A stretch of 64,000 bases of DNA from Symbiodinium sp. CCMP2592 (Eukaryota; Sar; Dinophyceae; Suessiales; Symbiodiniaceae), in NCBI GenBank assembly GCA_905221615.1, contig CAJNDT010000491.1, positions 620,001 through 684,000 on the forward strand, given 5' to 3'. Shown in pieces: positions 21,324-46,512 of this stretch. The notes beneath the pieces were generated by a model. That model did no database searches. It was not told where the DNA came from and saw only the letters and a program-made list of their open reading frames with translations. A program made the translations under genes and the position numbers. The number at the start of each line of letters is the position of its first letter. Within the stretch, counting starts at the first letter, position 1.

Positions 21324-21471
21324 CTTCACACTTGTGGAGGTACCCGTTCGGTACACTCTACACAGGTGGAGGCAACCGGAATACCCGGTGTGCTTCACTC
21401 AGGTGAAGGTGACCGGAGTCTCTCCGGCACACTTCACTCAGGTGAAGATAACCGGAAGAGTTTTCTCCCGG
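21324..21471 (+). repeat. Four tandem double-hairpin units in the leader
   Basis: Four units of about 40 bp between the primer site and the gag start. Each has a 6-bp stem with a 4-nt loop followed by a second, GC-rich hairpin. First hairpins: CTTCAC-ACTT-GTGGAG (21324), CTCTAC-ACAG-GTGGAG (21356), CTTCAC-TCAG-GTGAAG (21393 and 21432). Second hairpins: GTACC/GGTAC (21340), ACCGG/CCGGT (21375), CCGGAG/CTCCGG (21113 plus 300, i.e. 21413), CCGG/CCGG with an inner GAG/CTC (21452). They lie where retroelements keep packaging and dimerisation signals; a role there is inference. Confidence 0.8.
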
Positions 21472-21493
21472 GGCTCGATCCAAGAACAGCGCG

Positions 21494-24400
21494 ATGGCTA
21501 GCCACTCTGCGACTATCTTTGAGCATGATGGAGGAGATGAAGACTACCTCCTTCACGGCAATGAATCTTACGCGACGAATCATCGTCATCTCAATGAACT
21601 ACACCGTCTTTCAGCTTTCCAGCAGGTGACCACCAAAGTACCTCCATCTTATGATGGTAGAAGCAGTTGGTTTGCCTACGAAGATGCGATCGATGACTGG
21701 TGTGACATTACTGAGCTAGACAATGACAAGCGTGGACCAGCTTTGAGAAATCGGTTAGAAGGTGAAGCAGCAATCCACAAGAGGCTTCTCGACAGAGATC
21801 GCCTGAAGGACCCGAACAACGGAGTTAAGTACTTCAAGAGTTTCCTGCGGCCGCTCTTCGTGAAAGGAGCAGCGAATGTCTTTCTCTACCGCTTCCAGCA
21901 GTTCATGAACATGCACCGCGGGAACGGAGACATGCTTCGTTGGATTACCAGGTTTCAACTCTCTGTTCAGAGAATGCAAGAAGCGTGGAACGATACCTAT
22001 CTGCCGATCGAGGATCCGAACAATGCAGAGGTCAGAGCTTTCATAGCAGGACTTCCTCCAGAAGAACAAGCAGATATTACGCCAGCTCAGGCAATGGATA
22101 GAGCCAACGAACGGCTCAGAGAGCAGCATGCTCGGACCATTCCGATCACGGCCAACCTGGTCGCTTTGATCTTTGTGTCCCTGTCTGATCTGACACAGGA
22201 TCAGCGGCAGGTGTTGACATCACTGATGGCACATCGGAACCGAGTTCTGGCTGACTACAACACGACCGAGCTGCGTGAAGTTTACCTGGAGATCTTCTGC
22301 ACGACCAAGACTACCGTCGACAACCCACTCCTCGCTCCTTCGGGCCACGGTGGCCGCAAGACGTTCCTTGTGATCGATGAAGGATATCTGGACAATCACG
22401 AAGGCTACTGGGTCGAGGACGAGGAGGATGGCACGGAAGGTTTCCTCGAAGCGGATGAGGACGCCTTCTGGGTCTACGACGCCGAGAACTACTCATGGTT
22501 CCAGCGGCGTTTCCAAGGCCGCAAGATGAGGCGCGGATTCAAGGGCCACCGCAAAGGCAAAGGAAAAGGTGGCAAAGGATCAAAAGGAAGGCGCTTCTTC
22601 AAGAGGAAGAAAGGCAGGTCCAATCTTGCCGAAGAATCAGAAGCATGGCAGGCAGAAGGACAGTGGCAAGATTACCAGTGGAACGATCAGTCCTGGAACG
22701 ACTGGTCCTGGTACGAGTCTGAGGAATCCTATGCAGCCAAAGGAAAAGGAAAGAAAGGAAAGAAGGGCAAAGGAAAGAGCAAGTTTGGCAAAGATGGAAA
22801 AGATGGAAAGTCCGGAAAAGACGGACAGAGCCAGCTTGCTGATGCTGCCCCGAGCGGCACCACAGCCGCTACGACCTTCTTCGTTGAACATCTTAACACT
22901 CCGAACCTTTCTTTTATGGCCACCGAAGAGAAGATCAATGAGATCGAGGAAGCCTTCATCTCTCAGCCCTTGACGCCAACCACGATGGTGTTGGACTTGG
23001 GATGTACGAGAGCAATGGCTTCGAGAGTGGCCGCGCAGGACCTCATGGAGTTCTGTGACAAGAATCAGAACTGCGGCATATGGTACACCATTGCTGAGAC
23101 CACTTCTCAGTTCACCTTTGCCAATTCCGAGTCTACCAAATGCAACCAGAAGTTGGTCATTTGCATGTACGACCGGGACTTTGCAGTTCAATCCACAGAG
23201 TTCGACATTGTGGAACAAGGGCATGTTCCCATTCTCATGTCCTTACCTCAGATGCGCAATCTTCGTTTCCAGTTCGAGCTCCATCCGGAAAAGGCCTTGC
23301 TCAGCAGCCCTGTGCTGGGAATCAAGGATGTGAGGCTGAAGGTTGCACCGAGCTCACACCTGGTACTTGACCTTCTTGAACTCAGTCAGTTGATGTGGAA
23401 TGTGCGTTTCAGCAAGCATAAGAAGTCGAGCTTCCTCACCTACTTCTCCCACTATGAGTACGGCTTCCATCAGAAGACCGAGGGATGCTCTTCTCAGGAA
23501 GAGGTACCCAAGAATTTCGCTTTGGCGACGGACGATGAGTGGGTGATCAATGAAGCCGACATGGAGATGATTCGCATCCACAAGAAGATGAGAAGGGTCA
23601 AGTACGAACCCAAGGCGGGTTTTGTGCCTATTCCGTTGGAGTATCTGGACACCAAGCGCAAGACGATCATGGAGTTCTCCAAGGGAAAGAGCGTAACTCA
23701 AGAAGATGACTGGCGTTCTTCTGAGCTTTCTTCAACAAGAACTACTGACTCTTGGAAAGGCAAGACCATTTTCAAGATTCTGCCTGTTGGCATCGAGAGT
23801 AGAACCTCGGTGCCGGCTAAGACCAAGGATCCAACCCGTGGCAAGGTAGGATCTCCAGAGGATATGGTTAGCACAGGTAAACCTGAAGACAGCTCGAAGA
23901 ACACAGGAGCATCCGGAAGCTTTCCTCAGGGAAAGGTACCGGAGAGAAGAAGAATTCGAGTCAAGGGAAGCTTTCCACAGGGAAAGGAACCCAAGGAACC
24001 GGCTCCTTCTCCTCTTGCTCCTGAAGATGATCCGGATCTTCAAGAGTACGAACCGTCTGAACCCGGGGATGCAGATTTGCTTCCTCCGAAGGGCCCAGAG
24101 CCACAGTCGCTAGAACCTAGGAGGATCGCGCTTCCATTGCCAGGCCACGAGGTCTCAAGGGCTTCTCCGCAGTATCAGCGCATGTTGGAAAAGCTGAACA
24201 ATGATGTTGAGCTTTACAAGTTGCATGTGAAGCATTACCACATGAGTCCTGCTCAGTTTCGACGCAGGACCAGCATGCTTGGGCTGCCAGGAGAGATCTA
24301 TGACAAGTACGACCGCATCGTCAAAGGCTGTCGTGTTTGCAGCACCTCCGTGCCTACGCCTCCGCGAGCCAGAATCGCAGGGTTGAGAGCATCATCCTTC

Positions 24401-26425
24401 GGTGATCTCATTTTTGTTGATCACGAAGAGATTAAGTTTGGTACTAAAGCCTATCTGGCTTTGGTCATCATTGACGGTGCTTCGAATCTCCTGTGGGCTA
24501 CGGCTCTCACAAGCCTGGAAGCGCCAGAGACTCTGGGAGCTTTCCGACAATGGACAGAGGAGAACAACTGCGTTCCTAAGGGAATCGTAGGAGATCAAGC
24601 ATTTTTCACGCCACAGTTCATGTCCTATTACAAGTTCCATGGCATTACTCCATATCCATGTGGACCGCGAACTCCTTGGCCTAATCGAGCTGAGACCGCA
24701 GTGCGTCTTTTCAAGCGCACATGGGCCATCATGGCTAAGGCCTTAGCCGATGAAGGTTATGCAGAGAAGGTGACTGTTCGTCAAGCAGTCAAGAAGGTGG
24801 CATGGGCAAGAAATTGCCAGCTTACTGTCTCGGGCTATTCTCCTTTAGAGATAGCCACTGGAAGACGTCCACCAGACTTGTTTGACGTGGAAAACAGTTC
24901 TCCTGAACAGCTCTCTGCTGATCCTGCCGAGGAGGACCGAACCACTCTGGAACTCCAGAGGATTGCCATGCGGGCTCATCAAGAAGCCAGACAGTCGCTC
25001 GATCTTCGGAAGGACCTTGCACGAAGAGTTATGCCGTCTGATGGTCCTTACTCGAAGGGTGACCGCGTGTTCGTTTGGCATAAGGATGAGTCGAAGAAGA
25101 AGTCTGAAGGAACCTGGGTCAGAGGTATAGTTGTGTCACAAGAAGGTGCCATGGTGTTGGTTGAAGTTCATCGTGCCGTTCTTCGGGTTAATCAGTCGAA
25201 GGTCAGGCGTGATGGAGATCCGTGGCATGATGTGGCCATTCCTCTGAAGAAAGATGAGGTCCCGAGACGCTCTTCTCAGGAAGAGGCACTCGACCGCATC
25301 GGCGACGATATTCTTGATCGTGCCGGTTCTGGGTTCTGCTATGAGCATGAGATCTGTTACCACACTCTCACTTCAGGCAAGAGCGATTTCGTTGAGATCA
25401 CACCTCGCCTCACCGGGCTTACTGCGTGCACAGTCCATTCTGGACTTGATGCGAGTGAACCTGTGTTGTTTGGTGAATGGAACGCCAAGTCTATCCAATC
25501 TTCGATTGAGGCTGCTTGGCAAGTGATCTTGAAGGCAGAGCCTAATCACATTTTTATTCATCCTGTCATTCCTGACGGTTGGCCCAGGAAGGCCGCTAAT
25601 GCCTTCTGGCACTTTTGTGCCGAAGTCTGCCGTTGGCAAGATGACAAGGGCGATGGATACTTCGTGACCATCATGTATCCTTCTCATTGTGGGTTCTGGC
25701 TTTCGCAGAGTAGTCGCTCTCTGAAGTGGAGAAGAGGACTTTCATTCCACACCTTCAAGAACCGTGGTGTACTTCCTTCAGGGGGAGATGACCATGGTAA
25801 GCATCAGCATGGTGAGCTTTCTTTTCTCACTAATCTGCCTGATGGATCATTTGGCCGTTTGGAGTCGTTGGAAGAAGGCTATGACTCTGCTAACGCACTT
25901 GATCCGAGGTTTGCTGTGCTGCTTTCGCAGTGTCTTGTGGGTGATGAACGATCAGATCTCCGACAATCTTGCTTGTTCGAAGATATCTTTGAGGATTTCG
26001 ATGACGGAACACTGTGTGCGTTGTGTTTGCGATCAGACCGCAATTCAGAGGCTTTACCGGTTCTTCCGTCAGAAGCAGAGTACTCATTACTCTCAAACAA
26101 TGACAACAGGAAGCTTCCGACACCTCTGAGGTTTGTTGCGCCGCAGCGTTTTGTTACATCGTCTTTGGTCCAGACTCTGTCGTATGTTGACAGTCTCCTT
26201 CCAGGTACTGAGTTGGAAGTTCACACGACCACATCGTCTGACGCGGTCGCCTTGCGGCCCATGATTAAGAATGTGCGCGTGCTGACTCTTCCTTATCTGG
26301 AGTTTGAGTACTGTAACGTCTACAGGGGGACTCAAGGGAAAACACTTCCTTTGGTTCATCGTCATCCCGATGCTGTTGTCATTTTGTGGCAGAAGGGTGA
26401 CATATGGATCATGTGTTTTTCGTGA
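21494..26425 (+). CDS. Copia Gag-protease-integrase polyprotein
   Basis: Begins with ATG at 21494. Residues 1-340 are Gag-like and helical. Residues 345-455 are a basic, GK-rich, nucleic-acid-binding stretch with W-rich acidic patches. VLDLGCTRAM near residue 498 resembles the DSG/DTG site of retroviral-type aspartic protease with an altered third residue. The integrase zinc finger is HVKHYHM...CRVC (about 910-950), and the core has D976, D1034 and E1067, a spacing typical of copia. A long unrecognised C-terminal part follows. Hairpin-encoded linker peptides (SFPQGK, SSQEE) occur near 666, 810, 827, 1260 and 1427. The frame ends at TGA 26423-26425 after a TTTTT run, where single-base indels probably disconnect it from the RT frame. 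Confidence 0.88.
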   Translation: MASHSATIFEHDGGDEDYLLHGNESYATNHRHLNELHRLSAFQQVTTKVPPSYDGRSSWFAYEDAIDDWCDITELDNDKRGPALRNRLEGEAAIHKRLLDRDRLKDPNNGVKYFKSFLRPLFVKGAANVFLYRFQQFMNMHRGNGDMLRWITRFQLSVQRMQEAWNDTYLPIEDPNNAEVRAFIAGLPPEEQADITPAQAMDRANERLREQHARTIPITANLVALIFVSLSDLTQDQRQVLTSLMAHRNRVLADYNTTELREVYLEIFCTTKTTVDNPLLAPSGHGGRKTFLVIDEGYLDNHEGYWVEDEEDGTEGFLEADEDAFWVYDAENYSWFQRRFQGRKMRRGFKGHRKGKGKGGKGSKGRRFFKRKKGRSNLAEESEAWQAEGQWQDYQWNDQSWNDWSWYESEESYAAKGKGKKGKKGKGKSKFGKDGKDGKSGKDGQSQLADAAPSGTTAATTFFVEHLNTPNLSFMATEEKINEIEEAFISQPLTPTTMVLDLGCTRAMASRVAAQDLMEFCDKNQNCGIWYTIAETTSQFTFANSESTKCNQKLVICMYDRDFAVQSTEFDIVEQGHVPILMSLPQMRNLRFQFELHPEKALLSSPVLGIKDVRLKVAPSSHLVLDLLELSQLMWNVRFSKHKKSSFLTYFSHYEYGFHQKTEGCSSQEEVPKNFALATDDEWVINEADMEMIRIHKKMRRVKYEPKAGFVPIPLEYLDTKRKTIMEFSKGKSVTQEDDWRSSELSSTRTTDSWKGKTIFKILPVGIESRTSVPAKTKDPTRGKVGSPEDMVSTGKPEDSSKNTGASGSFPQGKVPERRRIRVKGSFPQGKEPKEPAPSPLAPEDDPDLQEYEPSEPGDADLLPPKGPEPQSLEPRRIALPLPGHEVSRASPQYQRMLEKLNNDVELYKLHVKHYHMSPAQFRRRTSMLGLPGEIYDKYDRIVKGCRVCSTSVPTPPRARIAGLRASSFGDLIFVDHEEIKFGTKAYLALVIIDGASNLLWATALTSLEAPETLGAFRQWTEENNCVPKGIVGDQAFFTPQFMSYYKFHGITPYPCGPRTPWPNRAETAVRLFKRTWAIMAKALADEGYAEKVTVRQAVKKVAWARNCQLTVSGYSPLEIATGRRPPDLFDVENSSPEQLSADPAEEDRTTLELQRIAMRAHQEARQSLDLRKDLARRVMPSDGPYSKGDRVFVWHKDESKKKSEGTWVRGIVVSQEGAMVLVEVHRAVLRVNQSKVRRDGDPWHDVAIPLKKDEVPRRSSQEEALDRIGDDILDRAGSGFCYEHEICYHTLTSGKSDFVEITPRLTGLTACTVHSGLDASEPVLFGEWNAKSIQSSIEAAWQVILKAEPNHIFIHPVIPDGWPRKAANAFWHFCAEVCRWQDDKGDGYFVTIMYPSHCGFWLSQSSRSLKWRRGLSFHTFKNRGVLPSGGDDHGKHQHGELSFLTNLPDGSFGRLESLEEGYDSANALDPRFAVLLSQCLVGDERSDLRQSCLFEDIFEDFDDGTLCALCLRSDRNSEALPVLPSEAEYSLLSNNDNRKLPTPLRFVAPQRFVTSSLVQTLSYVDSLLPGTELEVHTTTSSDAVALRPMIKNVRVLTLPYLEFEYCNVYRGTQGKTLPLVHRHPDAVVILWQKGDIWIMCFS

Positions 26426-26498
26426 CGATGGCACAGTTGCTTCCTTGCCTTAAGGATAGTCACAGAACAACAGTTCCAGACGGGGGCCTGATGTTGGT

Positions 26499-27413
26499 TT
26501 GGACTTCACGGACCAGCCAGCGCCAGCCCCGGTTGCACCGCAACCGCCAGCCACGGACGACGATGTGGACTATCCAGGATATGATGATCCACACGGTGAT
26601 ATGCCTGTGGATGATGAGGAAATGCCACTACAGCATCCGGAGCAGGATTTGGATGATAATCCTGTTGAGTTGCATGTCGGTGGTGACCCTCCGTCACAAC
26701 CTCCTGGAGGCGGTACTCATGTACCGGTACCAGGGGGAGATGATGATTCCGACCTGGATCACGATCCGGACAGTGGTGGACATCCGCCAGGAGGCGGTCC
26801 TCAGGGACCGGGACCTGGCTATGGTCCTTCACCGGACGAGCCTCCTCTTCCGATGGAGTTTCACGAGGAGTCGCCTCCTCCTGGAGGTCCTCCCGACTCT
26901 CCTGGGGCTCCTCCGCAGTTTGCGAACCCGGATCAGGTTCTCAGTCCACCGATGCCGTGGCCGGCACCACCTTCACCTATTATTGTTCCTGTTCCAATTC
27001 CGCCGCATCCTCACTTTCCGGTGCCACAGAGTATGAGACCGCCGTCACCTCGTAACGTGTCTCAGACACGCGCAAAAGGCGCACATCCTGACGATGTGTC
27101 TAAGGCAAAGTCACGTGCTGTTGTGGGCCCTCCGGTTGTGCTGTTGCCTGGGCAATCTGCGGGAAAGAAGGATCCCGATCCGTCGGGTGACTTTCCAGGC
27201 TTTCACGAGCCTGCTTCCTCTTCTTCTGATCCGGCTCCTGTTCCTGGTTTGCCGGTGACTGAGGAGAATTTCCTATCCAGCAAACCCCACTCCCGGAACC
27301 CACCCCGGAACCGCCGGTGCCGGAAGCTGGTGAGGATACCGATTCGGATGCCACGGTTGACTATCGTGATGAGAGTTTGCTTGCCTTGGCTATTGGCGAC
27401 GACGACGTTTTGA
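26499..27413 (+). CDS. Pro/Gly/Asp-rich linker between integrase and RT
   Basis: Low-complexity, highly acidic and proline-rich sequence in a third frame that bridges the integrase frame and the RT frame. It contains two hairpins (26712-26727, 26795-26810). The true coding path probably runs frame 2 to frame 0 to frame 2, with shifts near 26,416-26,486 (TTTTT, GGGGG runs) and near 27,280. No start codon is needed if these shifts are errors or recoding. The first usable codon here is a TTG, so independent translation is unlikely. Confidence 0.55.
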   Translation: MDFTDQPAPAPVAPQPPATDDDVDYPGYDDPHGDMPVDDEEMPLQHPEQDLDDNPVELHVGGDPPSQPPGGGTHVPVPGGDDDSDLDHDPDSGGHPPGGGPQGPGPGYGPSPDEPPLPMEFHEESPPPGGPPDSPGAPPQFANPDQVLSPPMPWPAPPSPIIVPVPIPPHPHFPVPQSMRPPSPRNVSQTRAKGAHPDDVSKAKSRAVVGPPVVLLPGQSAGKKDPDPSGDFPGFHEPASSSSDPAPVPGLPVTEENFLSSKPHSRNPPRNRRCRKLVRIPIRMPRLTIVMRVCLPWLLATTTF

Positions 27414-29842
27414 TTCGCCTTCCGTCGGACTTCAAGGTCCCGTCCTTTGTTCCGTTGGATGGTGATGGTTTTGCGTCGTGGTTGACTAAGCAGGATAAAA
27501 TCAAGGCGGGTACCCTCACGCCGGGGATGCAGCGCAAGTATGCCGCCGAAATTCGGAAGGCTAAGCTTGAGGAGTTCAAGAGTTACTTGGACAATGATGC
27601 AATTAGGCTGACGGACCGTCGCAAGCTTAAAAACGATGTCAATTTTCTTACCGGACGTTGGGTCCTCACGGTGAAGGTTGACAAGAACGGTTACTTTTCC
27701 AAGTTCAAAGCCCGATGGGTTTGTCGTGGGTTTCAGGACAAGTTTGCCTGGGATCAACAAACGGACAGCCCTACGGCTACTCGGTATGGTTTCCGTTTGG
27801 TTGCGCAGTGCGCTGCCAATCACTATTGGGATCTTTTTCATTTGGATCTTAAGACCGCTTTCCTTCAGGGGGAACACTACAATCTGTCATCTCGCATGGT
27901 TGTGGTTCAGTTGCCTCCTGACATCGGTTTGCCTACCTGGATGGTTGGCCTTTGTCTCAGACCAGTCTATGGTCTGAACGATGCACCGAGAAGATGGTGG
28001 AATCGTTTGGACAAATTCCTCAGGTCTGTAGGCATGGAACCGACCAGAGCTGACCGATGCACTTATGTCGCATACGACGGCATAGAAGGCAAGAAGGGCA
28101 AGAGCCACCTCGCGGCAGGAAGCTCCTCTCAGGAGGAGGAACCTGAAGCAGGAAGCACCTCTCTTGAGGTGGAACCTGCCTACCTAAAGGAGGTTGCCCT
28201 TCATGCCATGACATGCTACGCATACGATGAAGGAAACCGTTCTTCCTCCGACCGTGCGGAGGAGAGATCCTATCTTTCATGTCCCGATATCGCTCAGTGC
28301 TTTAACACCGATACCAAGAAGATGGTTGACTATGCTTGGAGACCTGTGACTGATGATAAGCTTCTCGGATTCTTGGGCAGTGTTGCTTGTAAGAAGAGAG
28401 GTTGGTTTCCTTATGAGAACGGGCATGCTCTCGTTTCTCACAGGGCCAAGGCTCTTCGTACTCCTGCACCTGTCTATCAGGTCAAGGACTACCCTTATCG
28501 AGTTTCCATGATCCTTCGTAAAGGTACATGGTGGATTGTCGAGAGGGCCCATGATCTGAGGTTGGACAAGGGTGACAAGACCTGTTTCCTTGAAGAAGAA
28601 GCTGAGGTTCTCGTCTCCTTGTTCCTTCCCGAGAAGGCTTCATACAAGGTCAAGAGCCTGTCTGAGCTCTCTCCCGAGTTGGTTGATCAGCTTCTTGAAC
28701 ACTTTGTTGACCCTGTGCATGGAAGTCCCAGCAAAGGCCGCAAGACAGTTGGAGTGATGAGTCTTCATGTTGATGATCTCATCATAAGTGGAACCCCTGA
28801 GTTCCTCACTTGGTTCCTCAAGAAAATCAAGGAACACTTCACTGTCGGCCATGAGGACAAGAACGATCTTACGTTCACGGGACAGCGTGTTCGTTGGGTT
28901 CTTGATGCACAAGGGAAGAAGAAGTACATATCGATCGATCAAAAGCTGTGCGTTTCAGAGCTCGAGGAGATCGTCATACCTAAGCATCTTAAGGATGCAG
29001 ATGCGTGTGATAAAGCTCTCCACACCTCCTATCGCTCTTTGCTTGGTAGCATCAACTGGCTTCAGTCGAGGACGCAATTTCAGGCTTGCTATCAGTTCTC
29101 TCGTCTGGCATCAGCATCTGCTGCTCCGACCGTCGGTCACTGTAAGGAGTTGAACAAGTTGTGTCGACAGATACGCAGTGAAGAGGTTGAGTTGCGGGTG
29201 TGGCCAGTGAAGGGATCATCAAGGATTCTGGGAATTCCTGACGCAGCTTTTCGTAACAACAGCGACAAGTCCTCACAGAGGGCGATGACTATCTTCATCG
29301 CAGATGAAAGGGTCAAGAATCGAAGGGACACCAGAGGCTCTTTGGTCTTCTTCGAATCAACCAAAATCAAGAGAACGACCCTCAGTACCACAGTCGCTGA
29401 ACTTTACGCTTTGATGAAGTGTTTTGGTACCTGTCAGATGCTTCGTGGTTTGTGGAAGGACATCAGTGGTCTTGACGCCGAGATCCACATTCGTACCGAT
29501 GCTAACAATCTCGTGTCTACCGCTTCTACTACTCACTCACCCGAACAACAGGAAACCATTCACATGATTCAAATGCTGAGGAAGGAAGCTTGCTCAGGGG
29601 CTATTGCTGATCTTTCTCACGTTCGAACCGAACATTGTCTTTCTGACTGTCTCACTAAACGGAGCGCTAATCCTAGAAACCTCCTGAACTCTGTTCAAAC
29701 TGGGTGGTTGAAGGAAATCGATTCACATCCTCCTTTCCGTTCCATGATTGAGCACAAAGCTTTCTTGAACGCCTGGCTCCGTAAGGAGTACGCGGTTTTG
29801 AGTGCAGTGCCACATGTCATGTTCATGCAGGAGTGTCTGTGA
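27317..29842 (+). CDS. Copia RT-RNase H with a ~220-residue insertion in the RT
   Basis: RT motifs: FLTGRWVLTVKVDKNG and FKARWVCRGFQD (fingers), FHLDLKTAFLQGE (palm Asp, about residue 177), PVYGLNDAPRRWW, then CTYVAYDG (about 250). The catalytic LHVDDLIISG appears only at residues 484-493, whereas other copia RTs have it 15-20 residues later. The intervening 220 or so residues contain two hairpin-encoded linkers (28123, 28156) and a globular part. RNase H follows with PDAAF (about 640), TVAELYAL (about 693), RTDANNL (about 728) and LSDCLTK (about 775). Reverse transcription and RNA-strand removal are the inferred roles. No internal stop is present. Confidence 0.88.
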   Translation: MPEAGEDTDSDATVDYRDESLLALAIGDDDVLIRLPSDFKVPSFVPLDGDGFASWLTKQDKIKAGTLTPGMQRKYAAEIRKAKLEEFKSYLDNDAIRLTDRRKLKNDVNFLTGRWVLTVKVDKNGYFSKFKARWVCRGFQDKFAWDQQTDSPTATRYGFRLVAQCAANHYWDLFHLDLKTAFLQGEHYNLSSRMVVVQLPPDIGLPTWMVGLCLRPVYGLNDAPRRWWNRLDKFLRSVGMEPTRADRCTYVAYDGIEGKKGKSHLAAGSSSQEEEPEAGSTSLEVEPAYLKEVALHAMTCYAYDEGNRSSSDRAEERSYLSCPDIAQCFNTDTKKMVDYAWRPVTDDKLLGFLGSVACKKRGWFPYENGHALVSHRAKALRTPAPVYQVKDYPYRVSMILRKGTWWIVERAHDLRLDKGDKTCFLEEEAEVLVSLFLPEKASYKVKSLSELSPELVDQLLEHFVDPVHGSPSKGRKTVGVMSLHVDDLIISGTPEFLTWFLKKIKEHFTVGHEDKNDLTFTGQRVRWVLDAQGKKKYISIDQKLCVSELEEIVIPKHLKDADACDKALHTSYRSLLGSINWLQSRTQFQACYQFSRLASASAAPTVGHCKELNKLCRQIRSEEVELRVWPVKGSSRILGIPDAAFRNNSDKSSQRAMTIFIADERVKNRRDTRGSLVFFESTKIKRTTLSTTVAELYALMKCFGTCQMLRGLWKDISGLDAEIHIRTDANNLVSTASTTHSPEQQETIHMIQMLRKEACSGAIADLSHVRTEHCLSDCLTKRSANPRNLLNSVQTGWLKEIDSHPPFRSMIEHKAFLNAWLRKEYAVLSAVPHVMFMQECL

Positions 29843-36487: not shown

Positions 36488-36614
36488 TTATAAGTTGGGT
36501 ACGGCCCCCATACAGTAACAGTCTGCAATAGGGCTACTATTAAGGGCTTGTTATGTCTATATTATGAATATTATATCCAACTGTTACTGAGTGGGGGCCG
36601 TACCCAACTTATAA
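36488..36614. mobile_element. 127-bp MITE-like inverted-repeat element
   Basis: The left arm 36488-36522 and right arm 36580-36614 are inverted copies of about 35 bp with few mismatches, beginning TTATAAGTTGGGTACGGCC. The 57-bp centre is AT-rich with no coding capacity. The ends read TTATAA on both sides, so either a TTATAA target duplication or part of the terminal repeat. Looks like a non-autonomous DNA transposon. Confidence 0.75.
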
Positions 36615-36866
36615 GCGAGTAACCCAAACACCCAACTCGAAATTCGTACAACCTTCTGAACCTGAATTGGAGAGAACAGGGAACAGGCAGTTCATGCCTT
36701 CGCAGCAAGAAGAACATCGGCAAGCTTTGGATTCAAGAAGCTGAAATTAAGAAGCAGACAGGAGGCACACTGGAGCAATCACGCAGAGGCCGCCAGCACG
36801 AAGCCTCCTGATATACAGGAGGGCCAACCTGGATGACAGACAGCGGATGCGAGGCAAGGCAGACAC

Positions 36867-37094
36867 TTATAAGAGAACTGATTGCAGACTAGTCGTGCAG
36901 GCTGGCGTCAGAAACCCCCAGGGTTGGCAGATGTCGTTCGTGTCGGAATACGCATTGTCCACTTTGCGGGCCCTATATCCTCGTTGCTGTGCAGCTTCGT
37001 AGATCGCCTCGGGGCCGGGCGGGCTGCTGCACGCAGGAAGCACCGGATTGATCATGCGCCGTGTGGCGCCAATACCAGCAAAGATCTCCACCAC
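36867..37094 (-). pseudogene. Exon-like fragment of a methyltransferase-like multicopy family
   Basis: Reads VEIFAGIGATRRM, then an insert, then AIYEAAQQRGYRARKVDNAY and DICQPWGFL. The FAG start and GYxAxxxD spacing resemble the nucleotide-binding beginning of a methyltransferase-like family common in Symbiodiniaceae (comparison from memory). The following exons are not recognisable. A GT-type donor could lie after QPWG. Probably a gene fragment. Confidence 0.35.
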
Positions 37095-37099
37095 GTCGA

Positions 37100-38782: not shown

Positions 38783-38849
<67 letters not shown>

Positions 38850-39120
38850 GAACCGAGCATCACAGTGGGACAGCTAGCACCCTGGGTTTTGCTTCGAAAG
38901 GACGTGCTCCGTCGGACTTCTGCCGGGAGTCACTACATGAAATATTTCAGTATTCAGGATCACGAACACACAAGAACCACAACAGCTACAGACCCGTCAT
39001 GAAGCCGTTCTCAGTTCGTCGGAGAGCAAGTTCATTAGAATTTGTATCCCGGAATCACACTAAGCTGGGGCGACCTCAGATGATCTCGAATGTCCTCCTC
39101 GTACGGCATAAAGCACCGCT
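37100..39120. other. Stretch without a supportable gene; (CT)n microsatellite
   Basis: Only short open frames of random character. A pure CT run spans about 38,788-38,846; the Arg-Glu and Ser-Leu repeat frames across it are artefacts. Isolated exon-like pieces cannot be excluded. Confidence 0.6.
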
Positions 39121-39122
39121 GC

Positions 39123-39449
39123 TTAATCCATAGTGTCCAAGCTAATGTCTGTAGTTTGGGGCCCCAGATCATCGAGACCATGGTCATAGGCAGCAGAACG
39201 CGAGTGAAGCAAATCGATGCGCTCGTGCACATCCATGAAAGACCCCACCAAGTCCTCCTCAAAGGACTCTAGACGCGATCGCAGAGAGCACACTTCACTC
39301 GATACCCGATCCAGCCATGACCGCAATCTCGGCAACTCGGACGACAAGCAATTCAGCTGTTCTACCGCTGTGGTGACGACGACCCAGAGCGCACTTAGCC
39401 TCTCAGCTTCCGTGGCATCATAAGCGGCGGGGATCTCTGCACGGGCCAT
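39123..39449 (-). CDS. Small coiled-coil ORF inside the giant element
   Basis: ATG at 39449; 108 residues ending at TAG 39123-39125. Strong heptad pattern over about residues 25-85 (LNCLSSELPRLRSWLDRV, then EVCSLRSRLESFEEDL), so a coiled coil is likely. No family recognised. It lies antisense to the giant element, between microsatellites, and could be a single exon. It resembles the coiled-coil ORFs at 18.9-19.9 kb in design only. Confidence 0.35.
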   Translation of the reverse strand: MARAEIPAAYDATEAERLSALWVVVTTAVEQLNCLSSELPRLRSWLDRVSSEVCSLRSRLESFEEDLVGSFMDVHERIDLLHSRSAAYDHGLDDLGPQTTDISLDTMD

Positions 39450-39559
39450 CTAAAGCGATAACTGATGCTCGAGCTGTCACTTCTTCGGTTCAACATAATA
39501 AGAATTCCCCGATATCTCTGACGCAGGCACTCACGCAGCAAAATCTCCCGGGCGCTTGC

Positions 39560-39652
39560 CCTCTTTCTTTGTCTCTATCTATTTATCTGTCTACCAATCT
39601 CTCTCTGTCTCTCTCTCTCTCTCGAGGAGTATATACATATATATATATATGT
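39560..39652. repeat. CT-rich and TA microsatellites
   Basis: TCTATCTATTTATCTG-like sequence, a CT run (about 39,599-39,624) and a short TA run (about 39,636-39,650). Non-coding. Confidence 0.8.
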
Positions 39653-39941
39653 TCTAGATACGTAGTGACACAACACCGGTACATGGATGGGATGTTTCTC
39701 CAAACCGCCAAACCCAGAGGCCGGCACACCCCACACGCACAGACAGAAAAGATTACCAGGACCGTCGCAGGCGCAGCACCCTGAACCGCCAATTTGAAAC
39801 GAACATCCGCTTCCGGCGCCGACAGCAACAGCCCAAAAACCCAGGTACACGGTCAGGCGACAAGCGAACGCCCAAGTTATACAATTTCACGGTAACCCGG
39901 AACTGAAAGTGTGACTCATAGAAACATCCTGGCAAGAAAGG

Positions 39942-40605
39942 GCCTGCAGTGGGCGCCGATGCGGAAGCTGGCAAGGTCGTCGAGGGAAGTCCTGCCCGGA
40001 TGTTTCGCACAATACAATCATTGGTGAAGGCAGGAAAGGCCTGCAGCAGGCACCGATCCGGAAGCTGGCAAGGTCGTCGAGGGAAGTCCTGCCAGGATGT
40101 TTCACGCACTACACTCATTGGTGAAGGCAGGAAAGGCCTGCAGCAGGCACCGATCCGGAAGCTGGCGAGGTCGTCGAGGGAAGTCCTGCCAGGATGTTTC
40201 ACGCACTACACTCATTGGTGAAGGCAGGAAAGGCCTGCAGCAGGCACCGATGGGGAAGCTGGCGAGGTCATCGAGGGAAGTCCTGCCCGGATGTTTTACG
40301 CACTACACTCATTGGTGAAGGCAGGAAAGGCCTGCAGCAGGCACCGATTCCCTCCTGCCCGGATGTTTTACGTCCTACCATCATTGGTGAAAGCCTTTAC
40401 CCAGGAAAGGCCTGCAGGCACCGATGCGGAAGCTGGTGAGGTTGTCGAAGGAAGTCCTGCCGGATGTTCTGCGCACTACAATCAGTGGTGAAGGCCTACC
40501 CAGGAAAGGCCTGCCGCGGGCACCAATGCGGAAGCTGCTGAGGTCGTCGAGGGAAATCCTGCCCGGATGTTTTACGCACTACAAACATTGGTGAAGGCAT
40601 ATACC
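39942..40605. repeat. 97-bp tandem satellite, about seven units
   Basis: Units start at 39942, 40039, 40136, 40233 and 40330, exactly 97 bp apart, then two shortened or altered units (about 40,409 and 40,507). Each contains GAAGCTGG, GTCGTCGAGGGAAGTCCTG, GGATGTTT and AGGAAAGGCCTGCAG. Because 97 is not a multiple of three, the recurring peptides change frame and are not a gene. Confidence 0.9.
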
Positions 40606-40782
40606 CACAATAATATTGCAAGCTAGTCATCATACGACTTCAAACGCAACGGCATCTCCTGAAAAACAAGTCCGAAGCATGTGATGATCGATTCGTCTCC
40701 TTCAGGGCCAAGCTCTGGCGCAACCGTCGGTTCCGAAGGCTGCGAAGTCTCATCAGCCGCTCCTCCCCGAGAAACTCATGAA

Positions 40783-41322
40783 TTAAGTCTGGGCAGACCC
40801 CAAACAAAAGTGCAAATAATCCACCGTCAGACTCTGTGTGCCTTCACCTCGTTGATTCAACACGACCTCCTTGAAGTGTTTTTTCTGTTGCAACCGATAA
40901 TCAAGCCAAGGTGGATGTAGATGAATGGCCCCGAGGACAGCCCCCAAACAGCTAGGAGGAGGACCATCCGGAATAGTACCTTTCAGTCCTGGATCAAACG
41001 GCAGTGTCTCCATCTCATCCGGATTCACTACAGGCGGTCGGACTCCTTGCATGTGACATGATATCCAAGTATACATGATGTCTACACAGATATACAATCT
41101 TAGACCGCGTCCTGCTGGAACTGCTGGCACTCCTGGCGCCGCTGCATCCTCCGTGTCGAGTGAACCACTATTGTCACGCTCGAACTTCTTCTTCAGCAAG
41201 ACATCGCCGCATGCGTCCTCGCGGTGTACCATGTACATGTTAAAGGCATATATATGTGTATGATATGTGTGTATACAGATCGATACACACATCCACATAT
41301 GTCCTTCAAGCGTTGTAACCAA
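40783..41322 (-). pseudogene. Exon-like open stretches, function unknown
   Basis: Two parts look protein-like: 41,225-41,100 (acidic, then Ala/Pro-rich) and 41,045-40,790 (VVNPDEMETLPFDPGLKGT onward to a helical end). A His/Tyr-rich stretch between and before them is microsatellite-derived. Could be two exons with an intron across 41,050-41,100, on the minus strand inside the giant element. No family recognised. Confidence 0.3.
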
Positions 41323-41447
41323 TCTTTGCGAGCCTTTCTGCTCTTCTTCGTCTCACGGATCACAGCCAAGGCCTCATGCAGACTTTAAAGGATCCATGCA
41401 CAAAGGCATGGTTTCGAGACCATTGTTTCTGACACACGACAGCCTGG

Positions 41448-41715
41448 TGCCAATGAGTTGCCATGGACTTCAGCAGGCCTGCTTGGGTGTGGCCCAAGTC
41501 TTCGTCGAAACCTTTGGGGGCCTCCGCCGGAAACAGACAATCAAGGAGAGGAGCAACTCTGAAACTGCCAGATGAAAACTGAAACGACCTCAGGTGCCAC
41601 TGAGTTGCCATGGACTTCAGCGAGCCTGCTCCGGCGTCTTCGTTGGAACCTTTGGGGGCCTCCGCCTGGAACAGACAATCAAGGAGAGGCACAGTTCTGA
41701 AACTGCCACGAAAAC
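41448..41715. repeat. Direct duplication of a ~147-bp unit
   Basis: Two adjacent copies (from 41448 and 41595) sharing GAGTTGCCATGGACTTCAGC, TTTGGGGGCCTCCGCC and ACAGACAATCAAGGAGAGG, with a deletion in the second copy. Non-coding. Confidence 0.8.
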
Positions 41716-41719
41716 CGAA

Positions 41720-42640
41720 CTAAATTCGTCACCCCAATCAAAGCAGCCACGGCTCGTAGAGAGAAGCCAGGCACCCCATGATATTTTCGACAGTAAGCAT
41801 CTGCCCAAAGCCCGTGGCCACTTTCAAAAGCCTCGGTTTTGGTGTTCAAAAGCTATAGATCGCCATGAATGCATACCACACATATGTTTAGAATAGACAC
41901 GAAGTGATCACCTTCTCATTCGCACAGAGGATTTTATTCCGTGCTTCCGCATCCATCGAATCCAGATAGTCGTGCCGCAAGTCGTCGGCAAGCACGATAT
42001 CCAGAAAGAGATTCTGCAGGCATGGATCGAACACAAACTATATAGATCGACTACAAGAGAATTCGTAAGGTAACGCTACCGCGTTTGCATGCACTCTGTC
42101 CTGCGGGCACTCTGCACGGTCCGTTCCCCAACTGTCCACGAGCTCACGCTCATGCAGCGAGGAAGCAAAACCATTGGTTTTCGACCGCACCATGGCCCGC
42201 CGTCACAGGCACATGACTTTAAAACCACATACCAACACTATACGGCAGCGGAGAGGAAGGCAGCACTTTCGAAATCAAGTCCTGCCTGCGCAAGGAACAT
42301 GTGCAAGCACTGCATGCAGAGCTTCGAAGCTGGTCTGAACTAGCTGCCACGTACTGACACGAGGTTCTGCAAAGCTGCATATGCGAGACACAAGGGAAAC
42401 ATAACCCTCTGCACTGTCTTCGGCATCTAATCTATATAGGCGGGGGAGGTTTCAAATTGTTTATCGAACTTATTCTTGTTGGATTTCGCAGTCGCCATCC
42501 TCTTGTGGTATGGAAAAAGCCAAACAAGACACGCAAACCACAGGCAAAGCCTAGTTACCAATCGAGAAAAAAGGATTCACTGTCTCATGTGAGCATTTTC
42601 CGATCCGTTGGTGCAATTTCTACATATGAAAGCACAGTTT
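41720..42640. other. Stretch without a supportable gene
   Basis: Unique-looking DNA between the duplication and the cargo ORF. No convincing coding frame, RNA or inverted repeat was seen. Confidence 0.5.
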
Positions 42641-42745
42641 GCCCCCAAAGGACACTTTTCCCAAAGAGCAAAATCCACATAACGCTGTTTTGGCCCAAAG
42701 GACAAAATTGCCCCAAAGGACTGTTTTCCCCAAAGGACAGGCCGG
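42640..42745. repeat. Short CCCAAAGGAC repeats upstream of the cargo ORF
   Basis: CCCAAAGGAC occurs at about 42644, 42694, 42712 and 42730, with a variant (CCCAAAGAGC) near 42661, separated by T- or A-runs, immediately before the ATG at 42765. Could be a leader repeat; function unknown. Confidence 0.65.
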
Positions 42746-42764
42746 CAGGTCTTCTGGCCAGCCG

Positions 42765-43869
42765 ATGCTCAGCACCTATGGAGATGCCCTTGTTCAGGTC
42801 ACCCCCTGGCATACCTTGTCTACTTCGATGAGGGAGTCTTTGGGTGGTGAATACGACTGGGCATCCTGGTTACAGCATCCTCTGTCGGGGTATTCCTTGC
42901 ACTTCTTCTTGAAGGCATTCGAGATGGGCAAGTTGCAGGGGAACTACCTCGTCGAGCTGGACAAGAAGCCAAAGGTTTATTCCAATGGCTATTCGTCACC
43001 ATGGATGAACATGAAGCGTCATCCTGGAGGCCTTGCCAAGATGCTGGAGGACGTCACCCTCGCCGCACAGAATGAGTTCCGACCCACCGTCGGCCACATT
43101 GGTTTCGATCGCCCTCGTGACTCTGATCCTCGTGCAAAGATGCCCAAGACGGAGGATCCTGATTACTCTCGCAAGCTCGAGGCACACAAGGCTTTCCTCA
43201 GGGAAAGGTATGTGTACGACGAGGTCTTCAATGTGCGAGAGGATTTTCAGATGCTCGTCCGCGTCATCAATGAGGCATACGGAGTGGACTTCTTCTCCTA
43301 CATCCAGCGCCACGCCAGTGATCTGGAGGTTCGCCGGAAATACACGGTGCGAACCCCTGAGGGCTATTGTCTCTACGACAGTACCCTAAAGCAGCCGTTC
43401 AGCGGCAGCTACCTTCTGGCGGTTCTGGAGAAAGTCTTCGCAGAATCTGAGCACAGAGATTTCAAATCTGCTTTCGCACGCAAGGCCAAAGCGGACTTGG
43501 TGGCTTACGAGGACTTGAAGGCGAAGAAGGAGTCCGAGCTGAATGAGCTCCTCACCCGACCATATGAAGACATTATGATCGAGGAGTTCATCGAGCGACT
43601 CCCATGTCCACGGATCGAGGAGATCGAGGACCCTCTCGCGGCTACTCAGATGGACACCTCCGAGCCGTCTGCTGGATCCACAGACTTGCCACAGGGCAAG
43701 AAGGTTGATCCGGTCAAGACCGAGCCGACCGATGTGCCAATGGAGACTGAAGCTCCAGAAAGCTCTCCACAGGGAGAGGCATCTGGGGCTACTGTCGAGC
43801 CAATGGAGACGGACGCTCCGGAAGGCTCTCCACAGGGAGAGGAATCTGGAGTGGATGTCCCACAGAAAG
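42765..43869 (+). CDS. Cargo ORF of unknown function, N-terminal part
   Basis: First ATG at 42765. About 290 globular, charged residues follow, rich in Phe/Tyr/Asp, with no motif I recognise. An acidic linker then carries several hairpin-encoded peptides (LPQGKK, SSPQGEA, GSPQGEE; hairpins 43685, 43763, 43826). The hairpin at 43192 lies inside the globular part in a different codon phase. The frame is lost just before the hairpin at 43870 (one-base shift around 43,850-43,866), after which the protein continues in another frame. Same strand and same hairpins as the pol half of the giant element. Confidence 0.6.
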
Positions 43870-44512
43870 CTCTCCACAGGGAGAGGCATCCGAGGTTAAG
43901 GTTGAACCAGATGAGCACATGGGTCAAGAAGGAGGTAAGGCCGAGAACAGTGAGATGGCTGAGGAAAGCTCACCACAGGGTGAGGAATCCATGCCAGACA
44001 TTTCTCCTGAGAAGGATGATGAAAGTGAACTTCACGATCAAGGCATCTGGGGGAAATGCAAGACTGTTCCGGACCCTGAGTACTACCAGGCCGCGAAGGA
44101 TGCAGAGGACCAAAACGAGAACGCGTTCGAAGAGATGGGCAAGGCCAAGGAGAAGATTGAGCTCAAGGACACCGAAGAGTTCAAACATTTCCTCTCGGAG
44201 CTCACCGAGATCGAACGACAAAGCCCTATGCGGCTGCTCTGCAAGCAGTTGCATGGATATGGCTATTCAGGCTTGTATCATACAGGACTTCGTGATCCTG
44301 ATTACGAGCCCGTTCTCGCCTACAAGGTGCAGCATATGAGTCGGAGGGTAAATGTTCCGAACCACAAGGGACAGAAATACTCTCTTTCTATGGTGGACCT
44401 CTTCGATCAACTCAACAAGATGTCTCCCATCTATGAGCGTCGTCCCGACAAGCAGGACGTGGTCTTTCGTTCTGGGGACGTCCGCAGCACCTTGGATGAC
44501 AAAAGCCTCTGA
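43852..44512 (+). CDS. Cargo ORF continuation in a shifted frame
   Basis: Continues the acidic linker (two hairpin peptides; hairpins 43870 and 43969), then a globular part of about 150 residues with GIWGKCKTVPDPEYYQAAKD, a Lys/Glu-rich helix and PMRLLCKQLHGYGYSGLYH. It terminates at TGA 44510-44512, within a few codons of an AAAA run where the next frame takes over. The segment is therefore probably the middle of one long protein that ends with the EEP-like domain. No family recognised. Confidence 0.55.
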
Positions 44513-46121
44513 CATCCGAGAAACAGCTCTTGATGTTATGGAAGCACTTCTGGAAAAGCTGAAGTCCCTCGATGCAAGCGGCAATCCGGCAACTCGAGAA
44601 GAGCTTTTGAATGCTATGCTTCATTACTTCTTGAACACCGGAGTTGATGAAGAGGAGATCGGGGACCTCTCTCTTGAGAAGATGCCGAATCCTTATATTC
44701 ATCGTTTTGGTCTGGCAGAGGACTCTAAGATTCCCATCTTCACCAGCAAGACCAAGTACGCCGCGCTCATCGTCAATCTCGGCAACATGAGCAGGGGAAG
44801 GAAGCGTTCTGCTCCTACCTCCGTTGCTAGTCACATTGACTGGGACGATACTACACCATCTCGTGGAGCCCTGATAAAATCGATTGCACAGTCGAAGACG
44901 CATTTGTTCATGCTATGCGAAGCGGCTAAGATCGATGACTCCGAGGAAGCTTTCCTCACGTCGCGCGGTTGGCAATTCCTGCGCAACGAGTCCAAGGATC
45001 TGATGGTGGGGAGTCGTACCAATGGTGTTGGATCTTCGATCACCCGTTTGGCTGGCTCCACTCTCAGTGGATTCGCACACGAATCTCTTCCTTTGACCTA
45101 TATGGTCGTAGAGATCGTGTATGGAATGACAGTTCCAACTGGCATTCAGGGCAACCGAGGTGACTTTCCAGATGAGGCATTGACCAAGGTTCTGGAGCGT
45201 GCCGGCTCCGACCGTATAAGGGTCTGTTGCTTCCATCTCCGAAACGACGTGGCGGCAGACAAGGTGGCGTTGGCTCACGAAGTGTTGGGCAATATGTTCA
45301 TTGACTGCCTGCACTACCAGGTCGACCTCATAGGTGGCGACGCCAACATGGCCCTCTACCGGGCCACGGGCAGAAAGCAGGAGTCAATCGACATTCGTGG
45401 CGGGATGTACCAGAGCCTTCTCGACTATTTCCTGGAGGCCTGGTCAGAAAGCCCGAAATGTCCACACCTCTGCTCGCCTCGTGCGAGACACGTGTCAGCA
45501 AACGCCATGTGGCTTCTGAAGCAGTATGAGGACACGCTGGGGATGCCGTACAAGGACATCAAGCAGCCGGACTGGAATACTTTTCCTGGTCTGGACCCTG
45601 TTATGGCGACAGTCATAGAATGGGGACACAGCATGTCGGACAACCAATGGGCTGAATTTCCACCTTCAAAGACCGAGTTCGACATCCATGTCTCCGAGTG
45701 GCTGTTGAATTCCACCAGCGCCGCGTACCTTCTCAACGACCGGGACTATGACGCTCACACTCCGCTCCTCATCGAGGTTCACGCGAACCAGTACTCTGGA
45801 GGCAGGATGAGGGCGCTCAACCACAATCCCGACACCGTGAAGGAAGCCGCGGACAGGAGAAAAGAGAGACAGAAGCTGAACAAGGCGCGTGGTTCTGGTT
45901 CTACTGGTCCTGCAGCCGCACCACAGGGAGCAAGCTCTTCTCAGGAAGAGGCAGCTTCTGGTGCTCAAGCTTCTGGTTCTCAACGTCCTCAAGAACCCGC
46001 ACACTCTCCTGGTGGCAAAGAAGGCGGCAAAGGAGGCAAGTCCTCCAAAGGAAAGGACAAGGACGCCGACAAGGGCAAGTCCAAAGGCAAATCCAAGGAC
46101 AAGTCCAAGGGGAAAAACTGA
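44490..46121 (+). CDS. EEP-superfamily nuclease/phosphatase-like ORF
   Basis: Frame continuing the cargo protein. It matches the motif order of endonuclease/exonuclease/phosphatase domains: THLFMLCEA (catalytic Glu, about 44,900-44,925), YMVVEIVYG, RVCCFHLRND, DLIGGDANMAL (GDxN motif, about 45,330-45,355) and a late DAHTPLLIEV (His motif, about 45,750). Such enzymes cut DNA or RNA or remove phosphates with Mg2+; in LINEs they nick target DNA. The substrate here is unknown. The C-terminus is a Lys/Gly/Ser-rich tail (KGKSKGKSKDKSKGK) with a hairpin peptide (45935). Copia elements use integrase and do not normally carry EEP domains. Confidence 0.6.
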   Translation, partial: PWMTKASDIRETALDVMEALLEKLKSLDASGNPATREELLNAMLHYFLNTGVDEEEIGDLSLEKMPNPYIHRFGLAEDSKIPIFTSKTKYAALIVNLGNMSRGRKRSAPTSVASHIDWDDTTPSRGALIKSIAQSKTHLFMLCEAAKIDDSEEAFLTSRGWQFLRNESKDLMVGSRTNGVGSSITRLAGSTLSGFAHESLPLTYMVVEIVYGMTVPTGIQGNRGDFPDEALTKVLERAGSDRIRVCCFHLRNDVAADKVALAHEVLGNMFIDCLHYQVDLIGGDANMALYRATGRKQESIDIRGGMYQSLLDYFLEAWSESPKCPHLCSPRARHVSANAMWLLKQYEDTLGMPYKDIKQPDWNTFPGLDPVMATVIEWGHSMSDNQWAEFPPSKTEFDIHVSEWLLNSTSAAYLLNDRDYDAHTPLLIEVHANQYSGGRMRALNHNPDTVKEAADRRKERQKLNKARGSGSTGPAAAPQGASSSQEEAASGAQASGSQRPQEPAHSPGGKEGGKGGKSSKGKDKDADKGKSKGKSKDKSKGKN

Positions 46122-46142
46122 CTAGGTTCCGATTCTTCGGAC

Positions 46143-46367
46143 GTGGATATGGACAATGGTTCTGACGAAGTTCTTTTGGAACAAGATGAAGACGTTGTTC
46201 CAGATCCACAGATATCGCTACCTAGGTCCCCTGCTGATCCCCGTGGTTACGACCCTGTTCGTCACCAGCCGGTGATGCCGATCCATACCGTCGACATCTA
46301 CCGTTGGCATGGTGCTGATCATTGGCGTGATAGAACCTGGGATGCGGATCTAGAGTTCGTCGACTGA
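46143..46367 (+). CDS. Small acidic ORF after the EEP-like ORF
   Basis: Encodes about 74 residues, acidic at the start, ending VDIYRWHGADHWRDRTWDAD. It starts 21 bp after the previous stop in the next frame. It may be the real C-terminus of the EEP-like protein after an indel or a separate small protein. No family recognised. Confidence 0.35.
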   Translation: MDMDNGSDEVLLEQDEDVVPDPQISLPRSPADPRGYDPVRHQPVMPIHTVDIYRWHGADHWRDRTWDADLEFVD

Positions 46368-46391
46368 ACTGGCTGGGTGTTTCACGGAATG

Positions 46392-46512
46392 CTTCTTTCA
46401 GAAGAAGGTATCCAATCTGAACATTCGTCATTTCATAGGGAGAAGCTTTTCTCAGGAAAAGGGACTTCCTAAAGAACTCTTTCTCAGAGGAAGATACTTA
46501 TCTCAGGATAAG
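46392..46512 (+). repeat. Hairpin cluster in the 3' non-coding region
   Basis: Three perfect 6-bp/4-nt hairpins, CTTCTT-TCAG-AAGAAG (46392), CTTTTC-TCAG-GAAAAG (46446) and CTTATC-TCAG-GATAAG (46497), plus an imperfect one near 46,479. They lie after the last stop codon, so selection on protein cannot explain them. From 46,513 to the LTR no other feature is visible except TTTTAAATTTGTGCCTG at 46843-46859. No clear polypurine tract precedes the LTR. Confidence 0.85.

Follow-up and report, generated by a model that had tools for sequence, protein, structure and literature searches.

The DNA analysed here (the window) is a stretch of 64,000 nt from the dinoflagellate Symbiodinium sp. CCMP2592 (contig CAJNDT010000491.1, positions 620,001 to 684,000 of the forward strand), and all coordinates refer to the window unless a relative is named. 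Its plus strand carries one long terminal repeat (LTR) retrotransposon of the dinoflagellate Copia type, which harbours a family of 29 small hairpins and a weak thirtieth, all of them in the sense strand. The element is bounded by two LTRs of 184 nt (TG...CA; 21108-21291 and 46862-47045), whose identity over the full 184 nt suggests a recent insertion; both sit in runs of G, and a 5-bp duplication GGGGG is possible. Adjoining the 5' LTR is the primer-binding-site-like sequence TGGTAGCGGAGC (21295-21306), which we take to resemble the initiator-tRNA site of plant Copia elements. It is followed by the gag and integrase part of the polyprotein with a basic tail (21494-26425), a Pro-rich linker part, which is a separate open reading frame (ORF) in this copy (26499-27413), the reverse transcriptase (RVT_2) with the subsequent polyprotein part (27317-29842), an ORF with a Tpt1/KptA-like RNA 2'-phosphotransferase domain (30005-31258; residues 186-380, expectation value (E) 1.5e-7), and a conserved third ORF whose relatives are named from Symbiodinium (44352-46121), as are the named source organisms of the protein relatives in general. 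The Copia assignment is based on the RVT_2 reverse transcriptase (E 7.8e-17), an integrase located before it, and the LTRs; the integrase itself was assigned by gene order, by the name one source gives to the relative P0010, and by a weak rve match in the distant relative L001 (E 0.026, below cutoff). Whereas the polyprotein is broken into several ORFs in the window copy, it is a single long ORF in P0001 (2794 aa) and in L001 (2872 aa). A search for CCHC zinc knuckles was negative for the Gag of the window, for L001 and for residues 1-700 of each of 120 relatives, not all of which include the Gag part. Since the relatives P0137 and P0126 (and, less cleanly, P0122) continue from window position 31604 straight to about 42750, the roughly 11 kb in between (31640-42700, ends approximate), which lie inside the second ORF and are devoid of hairpins, most likely represent a nested insertion outside the hairpin family. 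AAGGAC repeats occur near the ends of this insertion and 97-nt tandem repeats at 39935-40419.

An earlier note on this DNA had described about 27 hairpins, each consisting of a 6-bp stem and a 4-nt loop. The four designs quoted there are present, and so are stem and loop, but the true unit is longer: below the 6-bp inner stem and its tetraloop it continues with a 3x3 internal loop and then an outer stem. In total, 28 hairpins were obtained from an alignment (A2) and the 29th (46597-46632) from a covariance model (E 3.7e-6), by which a possible decayed copy with one inner mismatch at 44656-44691 (E 0.008) was recognized as the weak thirtieth. Besides the longer unit, the note had overlooked that a single LTR retrotransposon carries all copies and that the nested insertion (approximately 31.6-42.7 kb) is free of them. 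The loops it listed account for 26 of the 29 hairpins (TCAG 14, ACAG 8, TCAT 3, ACAT 1; consensus WCAK), whereas ACTT, TCTT and ACCT, each found once, depart from its list. The outer stem usually comprises 3-9 bp, falls to 2 bp at 43685 and at 43870, reaches at least three pairs in 19 of 21 coding copies and is interrupted by a C.A at 21432 and 46607. There are 17 distinct inner arms among the 29 copies, and several copies have the same stem in common (43763, 43826, 43870). A search of the window against Rfam yielded no match at gathering score, and no known Rfam family was thus recognized at this score.

The earlier note had placed the hairpins in the leader, in encoded linkers, inside a globular domain in another codon phase, and in the 3' non-coding region. 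Four copies lie between the primer-site-like sequence and the start of gag (21315-21348, loop ACTT; 21347-21380, ACAG; 21385-21416, TCAG; 21424-21455, TCAG, with the additional C.A next to the internal loop). Of the 21 coding copies, 18 lie in the same codon phase, and their peptides are recognisable: CSSQEE (23482-23509), SFPQGK (23912-23943, 23965-23992 and 31337-31364), RSSQEE (25263-25292), GGTHVP (26700-26737), GGPQGP (26786-26819), SSSQEE (28116-28145 and 45926-45959), STSLEV (28148-28179, copy 28156, loop TCTT), RSSHEE (30031-30064), SSPQGE (43751-43790 and 43963-43990) and GSPQGE (43814-43853), together with the copies at 31224-31255, 43675-43710 (43685) and 43865-43890 (43870) and with copy 30322 (30315-30344), which has a flipped internal loop and lies ahead of the Tpt1 domain in the conserved segment AYFPxGE. 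The three in another phase are copy 25772 (25761-25798; flipped internal loop GTA/ATG), copy 30176 (30166-30201; flipped internal loop, in a segment conserved among relatives) and copy 43192 (43184-43215). The remaining four are in the 3' non-coding region (46386-46413, 46436-46471, 46489-46520, and the ACCT copy, 46607, at 46597-46632).

The density comparison with shuffled sequence that had been proposed as a check gave a clear result. In the sense strand of the element without the nested insertion (14,943 nt; at most one G-U allowed) we counted 26 hairpins of the form N6-WCAK-N6', compared to a mean of 0.43 (maximum 2) in 30 dinucleotide shuffles; 25 of these are members of the family, and the other one (26774) overlaps the hairpin at 26786-26819 and has no outer stem. 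When the outer stem had to comprise 3 bp or more, 23 hairpins remained, compared to a mean of 0.0 and a maximum of 0 in shuffles. The antisense strand had none, nor had either strand of the nested DNA and of the 36.8 kb of flanks, in agreement with the claim, originally made by eye, that the design is absent elsewhere in the window. Bare WCAK matches outside the sense strand of the element amounted to 0-2 per strand and region. The scan omitted the AT microsatellites at 20501-21104 and 47046-47699, where ACAT-loop hairpins occur by chance; shuffles and region scans together rule out chance or AT repeats as the origin of the family. Two other Copia-type ORFs with RVT_2 matches on the minus strand of the window (5760-8531, match below the Pfam cutoff, and 10112-14113) are likewise without hairpins of the family.

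Protein constraint had been judged insufficient to explain the hairpins, and this holds even though 18 of 21 coding copies share a codon phase. When all eight coding stretches (13,254 nt) were recoded with synonymous codons at their own usage, 19 observed WCAK hairpins stood against a mean of 1.3 and a maximum of 4 in 60 trials, and 20 hairpins with an outer stem and any loop stood against a mean of 2.7 and a maximum of 6. At the 21 coding sites, which were chosen because they hold hairpins, recoding would leave 2.7 inner stems. Protein constraint alone is thus ruled out, both at the chosen sites and across the complete ORFs.

Hairpins of the same architecture are present in a distant relative. 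One scan of prokaryote genome contigs returned two Copia contigs, L001 (WTIT01000146.1) and L002 (NYST01000022.1), from metagenome-assembled genomes labelled Euryarchaeota; by our reading they are eukaryotic contamination of prokaryote genome records. Our scans of viral contigs, which may leave out the genome of the window itself, found no relatives. L001 (14.5 kb) has its parts in the same order as the window element, with matches at 43-57% for Gag-Pol, at 30% for the Tpt1-like ORF and at 27% for the third ORF; its ORF between the latter two is not clearly like that of the window (E 0.11). Without a filter for purines, nine hairpins were found on its plus strand; a relaxed scan, which demanded purines at four flanking places, raised this number to 12 (three with one inner mismatch), compared to 0.55 in mononucleotide shuffles and none on the other strand. 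Their loops end in CA (GTCA 4, ATCA 3, five others once each), compared to WCAK in the window. Three of the five gag-pol hairpins of L001 map within 60 nt of a window hairpin, one of these window hairpins being 25772, which is absent from closer relatives.

The sequences of the stems vary while pairing is retained. In the alignment of 28 copies (a register of 36 columns) all cells (100%) of the inner helix are paired, compared to 79.1% of those of the outer helix, and 12 of the 13 pairs of both stems show change on both sides; for the 6-bp stem such change had been stated in the earlier note. The covariation score is 0.737, where shuffles give 0.209 and slid versions no more than 0.206; in L001 it is 1.021 compared to 0.239. 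The G-T pairs reported before are also real: inner stems contain 15 G-U but only one A-C, in a scan permitting both equally, and if two spurious-looking matches (46438 and L001 163) are omitted the ratio is 13 to 1 (p 0.002), with 4 to 3 in the outer stems. At the outermost positions of the internal loop the opposite bases form a homopurine pair, A.A or G.G, in 39 of 40 hairpins on one side and in 38 of 40 on the other (shuffle means 22.8 for p1=p3' and 20.7 for p3=p1'). For this count, the 28 window hairpins (46607 excluded) had been collected with no purine filter, and the 12 from L001 came from the relaxed, purine-demanding scan; the nine L001 hairpins found without the filter all satisfy the purine condition. 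The internal loop reads ANG/GNA in 20 of 28 window copies and GNA/ANG, that is, turned end for end, in 25772, 30176, 30322 and 8 of 12 L001 copies; its middle position follows no pairing rule. When folded in silico as isolated 36-mers, all eight hairpins tested form the inner stem, and in a context of 100 nt its predicted probability exceeds 0.5 in 24 of the 29 copies of the window and in 9 of the 12 of L001.

With the usual codon phase fixed, a hairpin corresponds to a peptide of nine residues whose residue pairs are reverse-complement compatible, and it can thus be traced in proteins. Among 93 of 168 related proteins (75 proteins of one clade, P0019-P0093, were dropped beforehand) 134 compatible 9-mers were found, compared to 6.8 (maximum 13) in local shuffles. 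At 18 orthologous sites, 147 distinct peptide cores were compared and 53 proved compatible, where shuffles lead one to expect about 30; site 30322 has 0 of 6, because its pair is a G-U, which the compatibility rule leaves out. Two-sided changes are evident at 45935 (SSQEE, FPQGK, SPPGE), 28123 (SSQEE, FSQEK, FSSEK) and 23488 (SSFEE, SVLTE, SPPGE). The residues encoded by the loops differ between lineages. In Tpt1-like ORFs with H at the AYFPxGE site the linker loops encode Q in eight of nine pairs and R in the ninth, whereas with F at this site they encode F or S in 11 of 11; the combinations H-F/S and F-Q do not occur, and the remaining cells of the table, which kept only linker cores beginning with SS, SP or FP, are R-Q (2) and R-E (1). 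In Gag-Pol, P0013 carries Q/H and P0001 carries F/L/S loops.

Loop types also bear on the question of whether a host protein reads the hairpins. An RNA-binding protein of the host, acting in export, translation or silencing, might be recruited or saturated by the RNA of the element, and the excess, the covariation and the homopurine swaps would fit this as well. Against this stand the absence of such hairpins with an outer stem from the 36.8 kb of flanking DNA and the occurrence of both loop types in proteins named from Symbiodinium necroappetens (F in P0158, H in P0159 and P0165). The presence of both types under one host species name speaks against a host factor as their cause, and we regard this explanation as unlikely.

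Comparison of relatives also shows gain and loss of single hairpins, which the earlier note had suggested looking for. Hairpin 25772 is a 10-residue insertion, flanked by the near-direct repeats AACCGTGGT and GACCATGGT, with a clean gap in six close protein relatives; four more distant relatives are also without it, two are unclear and four have no sequence there. At site 25270 one or two hairpin peptides are found, depending on the relative, and neighbouring copies resemble each other in the leader and at 43.7-44.0 kb. These observations, like the single codon phase of 18 of 21 coding copies, would fit micro-hairpins without function that copy themselves: short palindromes would multiply inside the element through duplication or through template switching in the course of reverse transcription, and correction from a template would keep their two arms alike. 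The earlier note had offered a hairpin-copying mechanism as one of two origins, and the insertion at 25772, the copy number at 25270 and the similar neighbours lend it partial support; 30176, 30322 and, compared to P0137, 43192 lie in segments which relatives share without any insertion. Moreover, copying of arms predicts Watson-Crick complements rather than A.A/G.G swaps, inner stems contain G-U but hardly any A-C, and all copies have a single orientation. The homopurine pairs and the G-U/A-C asymmetry thus disfavour a palindrome maintained at the DNA level by templated correction, and it is improbable that the family as a whole arose by functionless self-copying.

The Tpt1/KptA-like ORF invites a different explanation, in which the hairpins are cleaved and rejoined in the manner of tRNA splicing and the enzyme removes the 2'-phosphate at the junction. 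ORFs of this type are present in both the window element and L001 (L001:8861-10030; domain E 2e-9), and 48 protein relatives were found. The window copy apparently keeps the catalytic Arg-His-Arg-Arg residues: R197, H198 and R241 are near-invariant over 16 rows and the fourth residue of the tetrad is kept in most, the placement being our reading of the alignment to 7kw8. Such a tetrad is described as essential in PMC6333775. A profile search gave a weak match to Tpt1 7kw8 (E 0.00099 for the whole sequence, 0.14 for the stretch), and a phmmer search of the L001 ORF against PDB returned antibody-like noise only. The bulge-helix-bulge site of tRNA splicing is a 4-bp helix between two 3-nt bulges, whereas the hairpins present a symmetric 3x3 internal loop under a 6-bp stem with a tetraloop, and are thus not sites of this kind. 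In addition, the predicted proteins of relatives read through the hairpins in frame, and no ligase was seen among the ORFs. Cutting and sealing of the hairpins is therefore quite improbable.

The third ORF (44352-46121 in the window, with its counterpart at L001:11324-13519) gave no credible match in Pfam or PDB-sequence searches, and its AlphaFold model (mean predicted local distance difference test score 36.1) is too poor to use. By eye, its GDAN and DxHTPL motifs recall enzymes of the endonuclease/exonuclease/phosphatase type, a tentative impression.

Taken together, we consider it somewhat better than an even chance (about 0.55) that the hairpins are dispersed RNA recognition sites in the sense strand of a dinoflagellate Copia element, serving most likely Gag-driven packaging or assembly of ribonucleoprotein (RNP) particles. 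Selection on structure, the other origin considered in the earlier note, is well borne out by covariation, by the same architecture in L001, by the G-U/A-C asymmetry, by the A.A/G.G swaps and by pairing above the level left by synonymous recoding. Such a combination, a rigid frame of two stems with variable letters, an internal loop closed by purines and a tetraloop that differs by lineage, is what a repeated protein-binding site would be expected to show. The stems would serve as a rigid frame whose letters are free to change as long as they stay paired, while the purine internal loop and the tetraloop would be the parts read by the partner. About thirty sites along the genomic RNA would be bound by many copies of one protein. 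The binder would most likely be the Gag of the element itself, by means of its basic Arg/Lys-rich tail; this tail together with the lack of a CCHC knuckle leads us to prefer an Arg/Lys-rich reader of purine internal loops as ligand, comparable to Rev on its response element (PMC11101469), with the Tpt1-like protein as a conceivable rival. Dispersed packaging signals of RNA viruses (PMC6281560) serve us as the model. While the existence of the hairpins, their restriction to the sense strand, their covariation, the homopurine swaps and the shared architecture of L001 are observed, the ligand, be it a protein at all or Gag, and the purpose are inferred. Binding might then select, compact or export the genomic RNA. 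Retroviral packaging signals lie between the primer site and the gag ATG, and we have counted the four hairpins found in this interval in favour of a packaging role.

Several known systems resemble the family in part. The cited passages on dispersed packaging signals in RNA viruses (MS2, parechovirus and hepatitis B virus; PMC6281560; see also PMC5431903 and PMC7612645) describe assembly mediated by many small stem-loops with variable stems and a short shared loop plus a bulge or internal-loop motif, in both coding and non-coding sequence. The hairpins resemble these in that 29 copies share a loop and an internal loop, presumably as a recognition motif, and in that the structure is conserved by compensatory change; they differ from what those passages describe in the LTR retrotransposon carrier, the 3x3 homopurine-closed internal loop and an architecture which, in our judgement, is stricter. 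In the Rev response element of HIV, as far as described in the cited part of PMC11101469, an arginine-rich motif reads a non-canonical site that is rich in purines and has a G.G pair next to stems, yet that element is one large, cooperatively bound structure for which this part gives no tetraloop rule, compared to some 30 separate hairpins here. We know of no retrotransposon example of dispersed packaging signals. The retroviral psi leader contains stem-loops between the primer site and the start of gag, as does the Copia leader with its four hairpins; unlike psi, the same design recurs through the whole Copia element. Introner elements of Amoebophrya are likewise short hairpin-forming inverted repeats in dinoflagellate genes, but according to the cited passages of PMC7789003 they are introns with 3-5-nt direct repeats and without a family-specific inverted-repeat motif. 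The Copia hairpins also occur in non-coding parts, and in relatives they are read through, their peptides being retained in frame in the predicted proteins, which are gene predictions only. Mitochondrial byps form hairpins and break reading frames, and ribosomes skip them. They share with the Copia hairpins the repeated insertion of short sequences into coding sequence (cited part of PMC5009743), but here frames run continuously through the hairpins and the encoded peptides covary in relatives, so that the hairpins do not match byps in this respect. Literature on dinoflagellates, on Tpt1 and retroelements, and on analogous systems, covered at the level of titles and abstracts in a library with few subscription papers, contained no report of such hairpins or of a Tpt1 domain in a retrotransposon. 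Dispersed RNA recognition hairpins are known as a kind; for this architecture and this carrier we found no description.

Several observations weigh against recognition sites read by a coevolving protein. The outer three pairs hold G-U and A-C about equally (4 and 5). Reversed proteins still yield 26 compatible 9-mers. In P0018-P0093 (76 proteins), a large clade of Copia polyproteins, 72 of 77 compatible 9-mers are one shared site around LTSVK, and L002 is without any hairpin of the family; from these two observations, related elements seem to do without it. A covariance model (R1) built from window copies finds no L001 copy at E up to 1, so that kinship of the hairpins rests on architecture rather than on sequence. 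The switch between H and F loops is a single event on the tree of Tpt1-like ORFs, visible at several sites, and P0002 mixes loop types in Gag-Pol; coevolution with a ligand is therefore not independently replicated by the variation of loops between lineages. Finally, predicted folding is unfavourable for 28156 and, among the 12 L001 copies, for two when flanks of 40 nt are included and for three with flanks of 100 nt, and it pairs the four leader hairpins with their neighbours (-100.1 compared to -61.9 kcal/mol).

The leader (21292-21493) folds far better than its shuffles (z -6.28) by this pairing between neighbours, which may act as a switch or may simply reflect tandem duplication. A conceivable role of such pairing would be dimerisation, in which each hairpin unfolds and anneals to its counterpart on a second RNA copy, thereby aligning two genomes in register for strand transfer, and the 17 different inner arms among 29 copies would suit such register marks as well. 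Neighbour pairing, however, follows automatically from tandem duplication, several copies have the same stem, the tetraloops are not self-complementary, and the conservation of the internal loop would be left unexplained; we consider dimerisation highly improbable.

If the hairpins are indeed recognition sites on the genomic RNA, a more far-reaching proposal can be made, which we offer tentatively. They might constitute a self-consistent RNA address code that extends over the whole genome of the element, with one three-dimensional shape, in which A.A and G.G pairs swap in step and the internal loop can be flipped end for end. The loop would act as a password (WCAK, F/S-coding or NNCA) that changes at many sites together as a lineage and its RNA-binding protein diverge, and copies might be gained by insertion into linkers or be carved synonymously into conserved segments.

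Except in a few model systems, little is known of how LTR retrotransposons select and package their RNA. Here, the signal is unusually easy to read: dozens of natural variants in one molecule would define a recognition code, including a covarying internal loop that is not of the Watson-Crick type, and the lineage-specific loops make binding specificity, protein-RNA coevolution and dispersed packaging signals testable in vitro. In addition, the hairpins may serve as a fingerprint by which these elements can be recognised in dinoflagellate genomes, which are large and filled with repeats.

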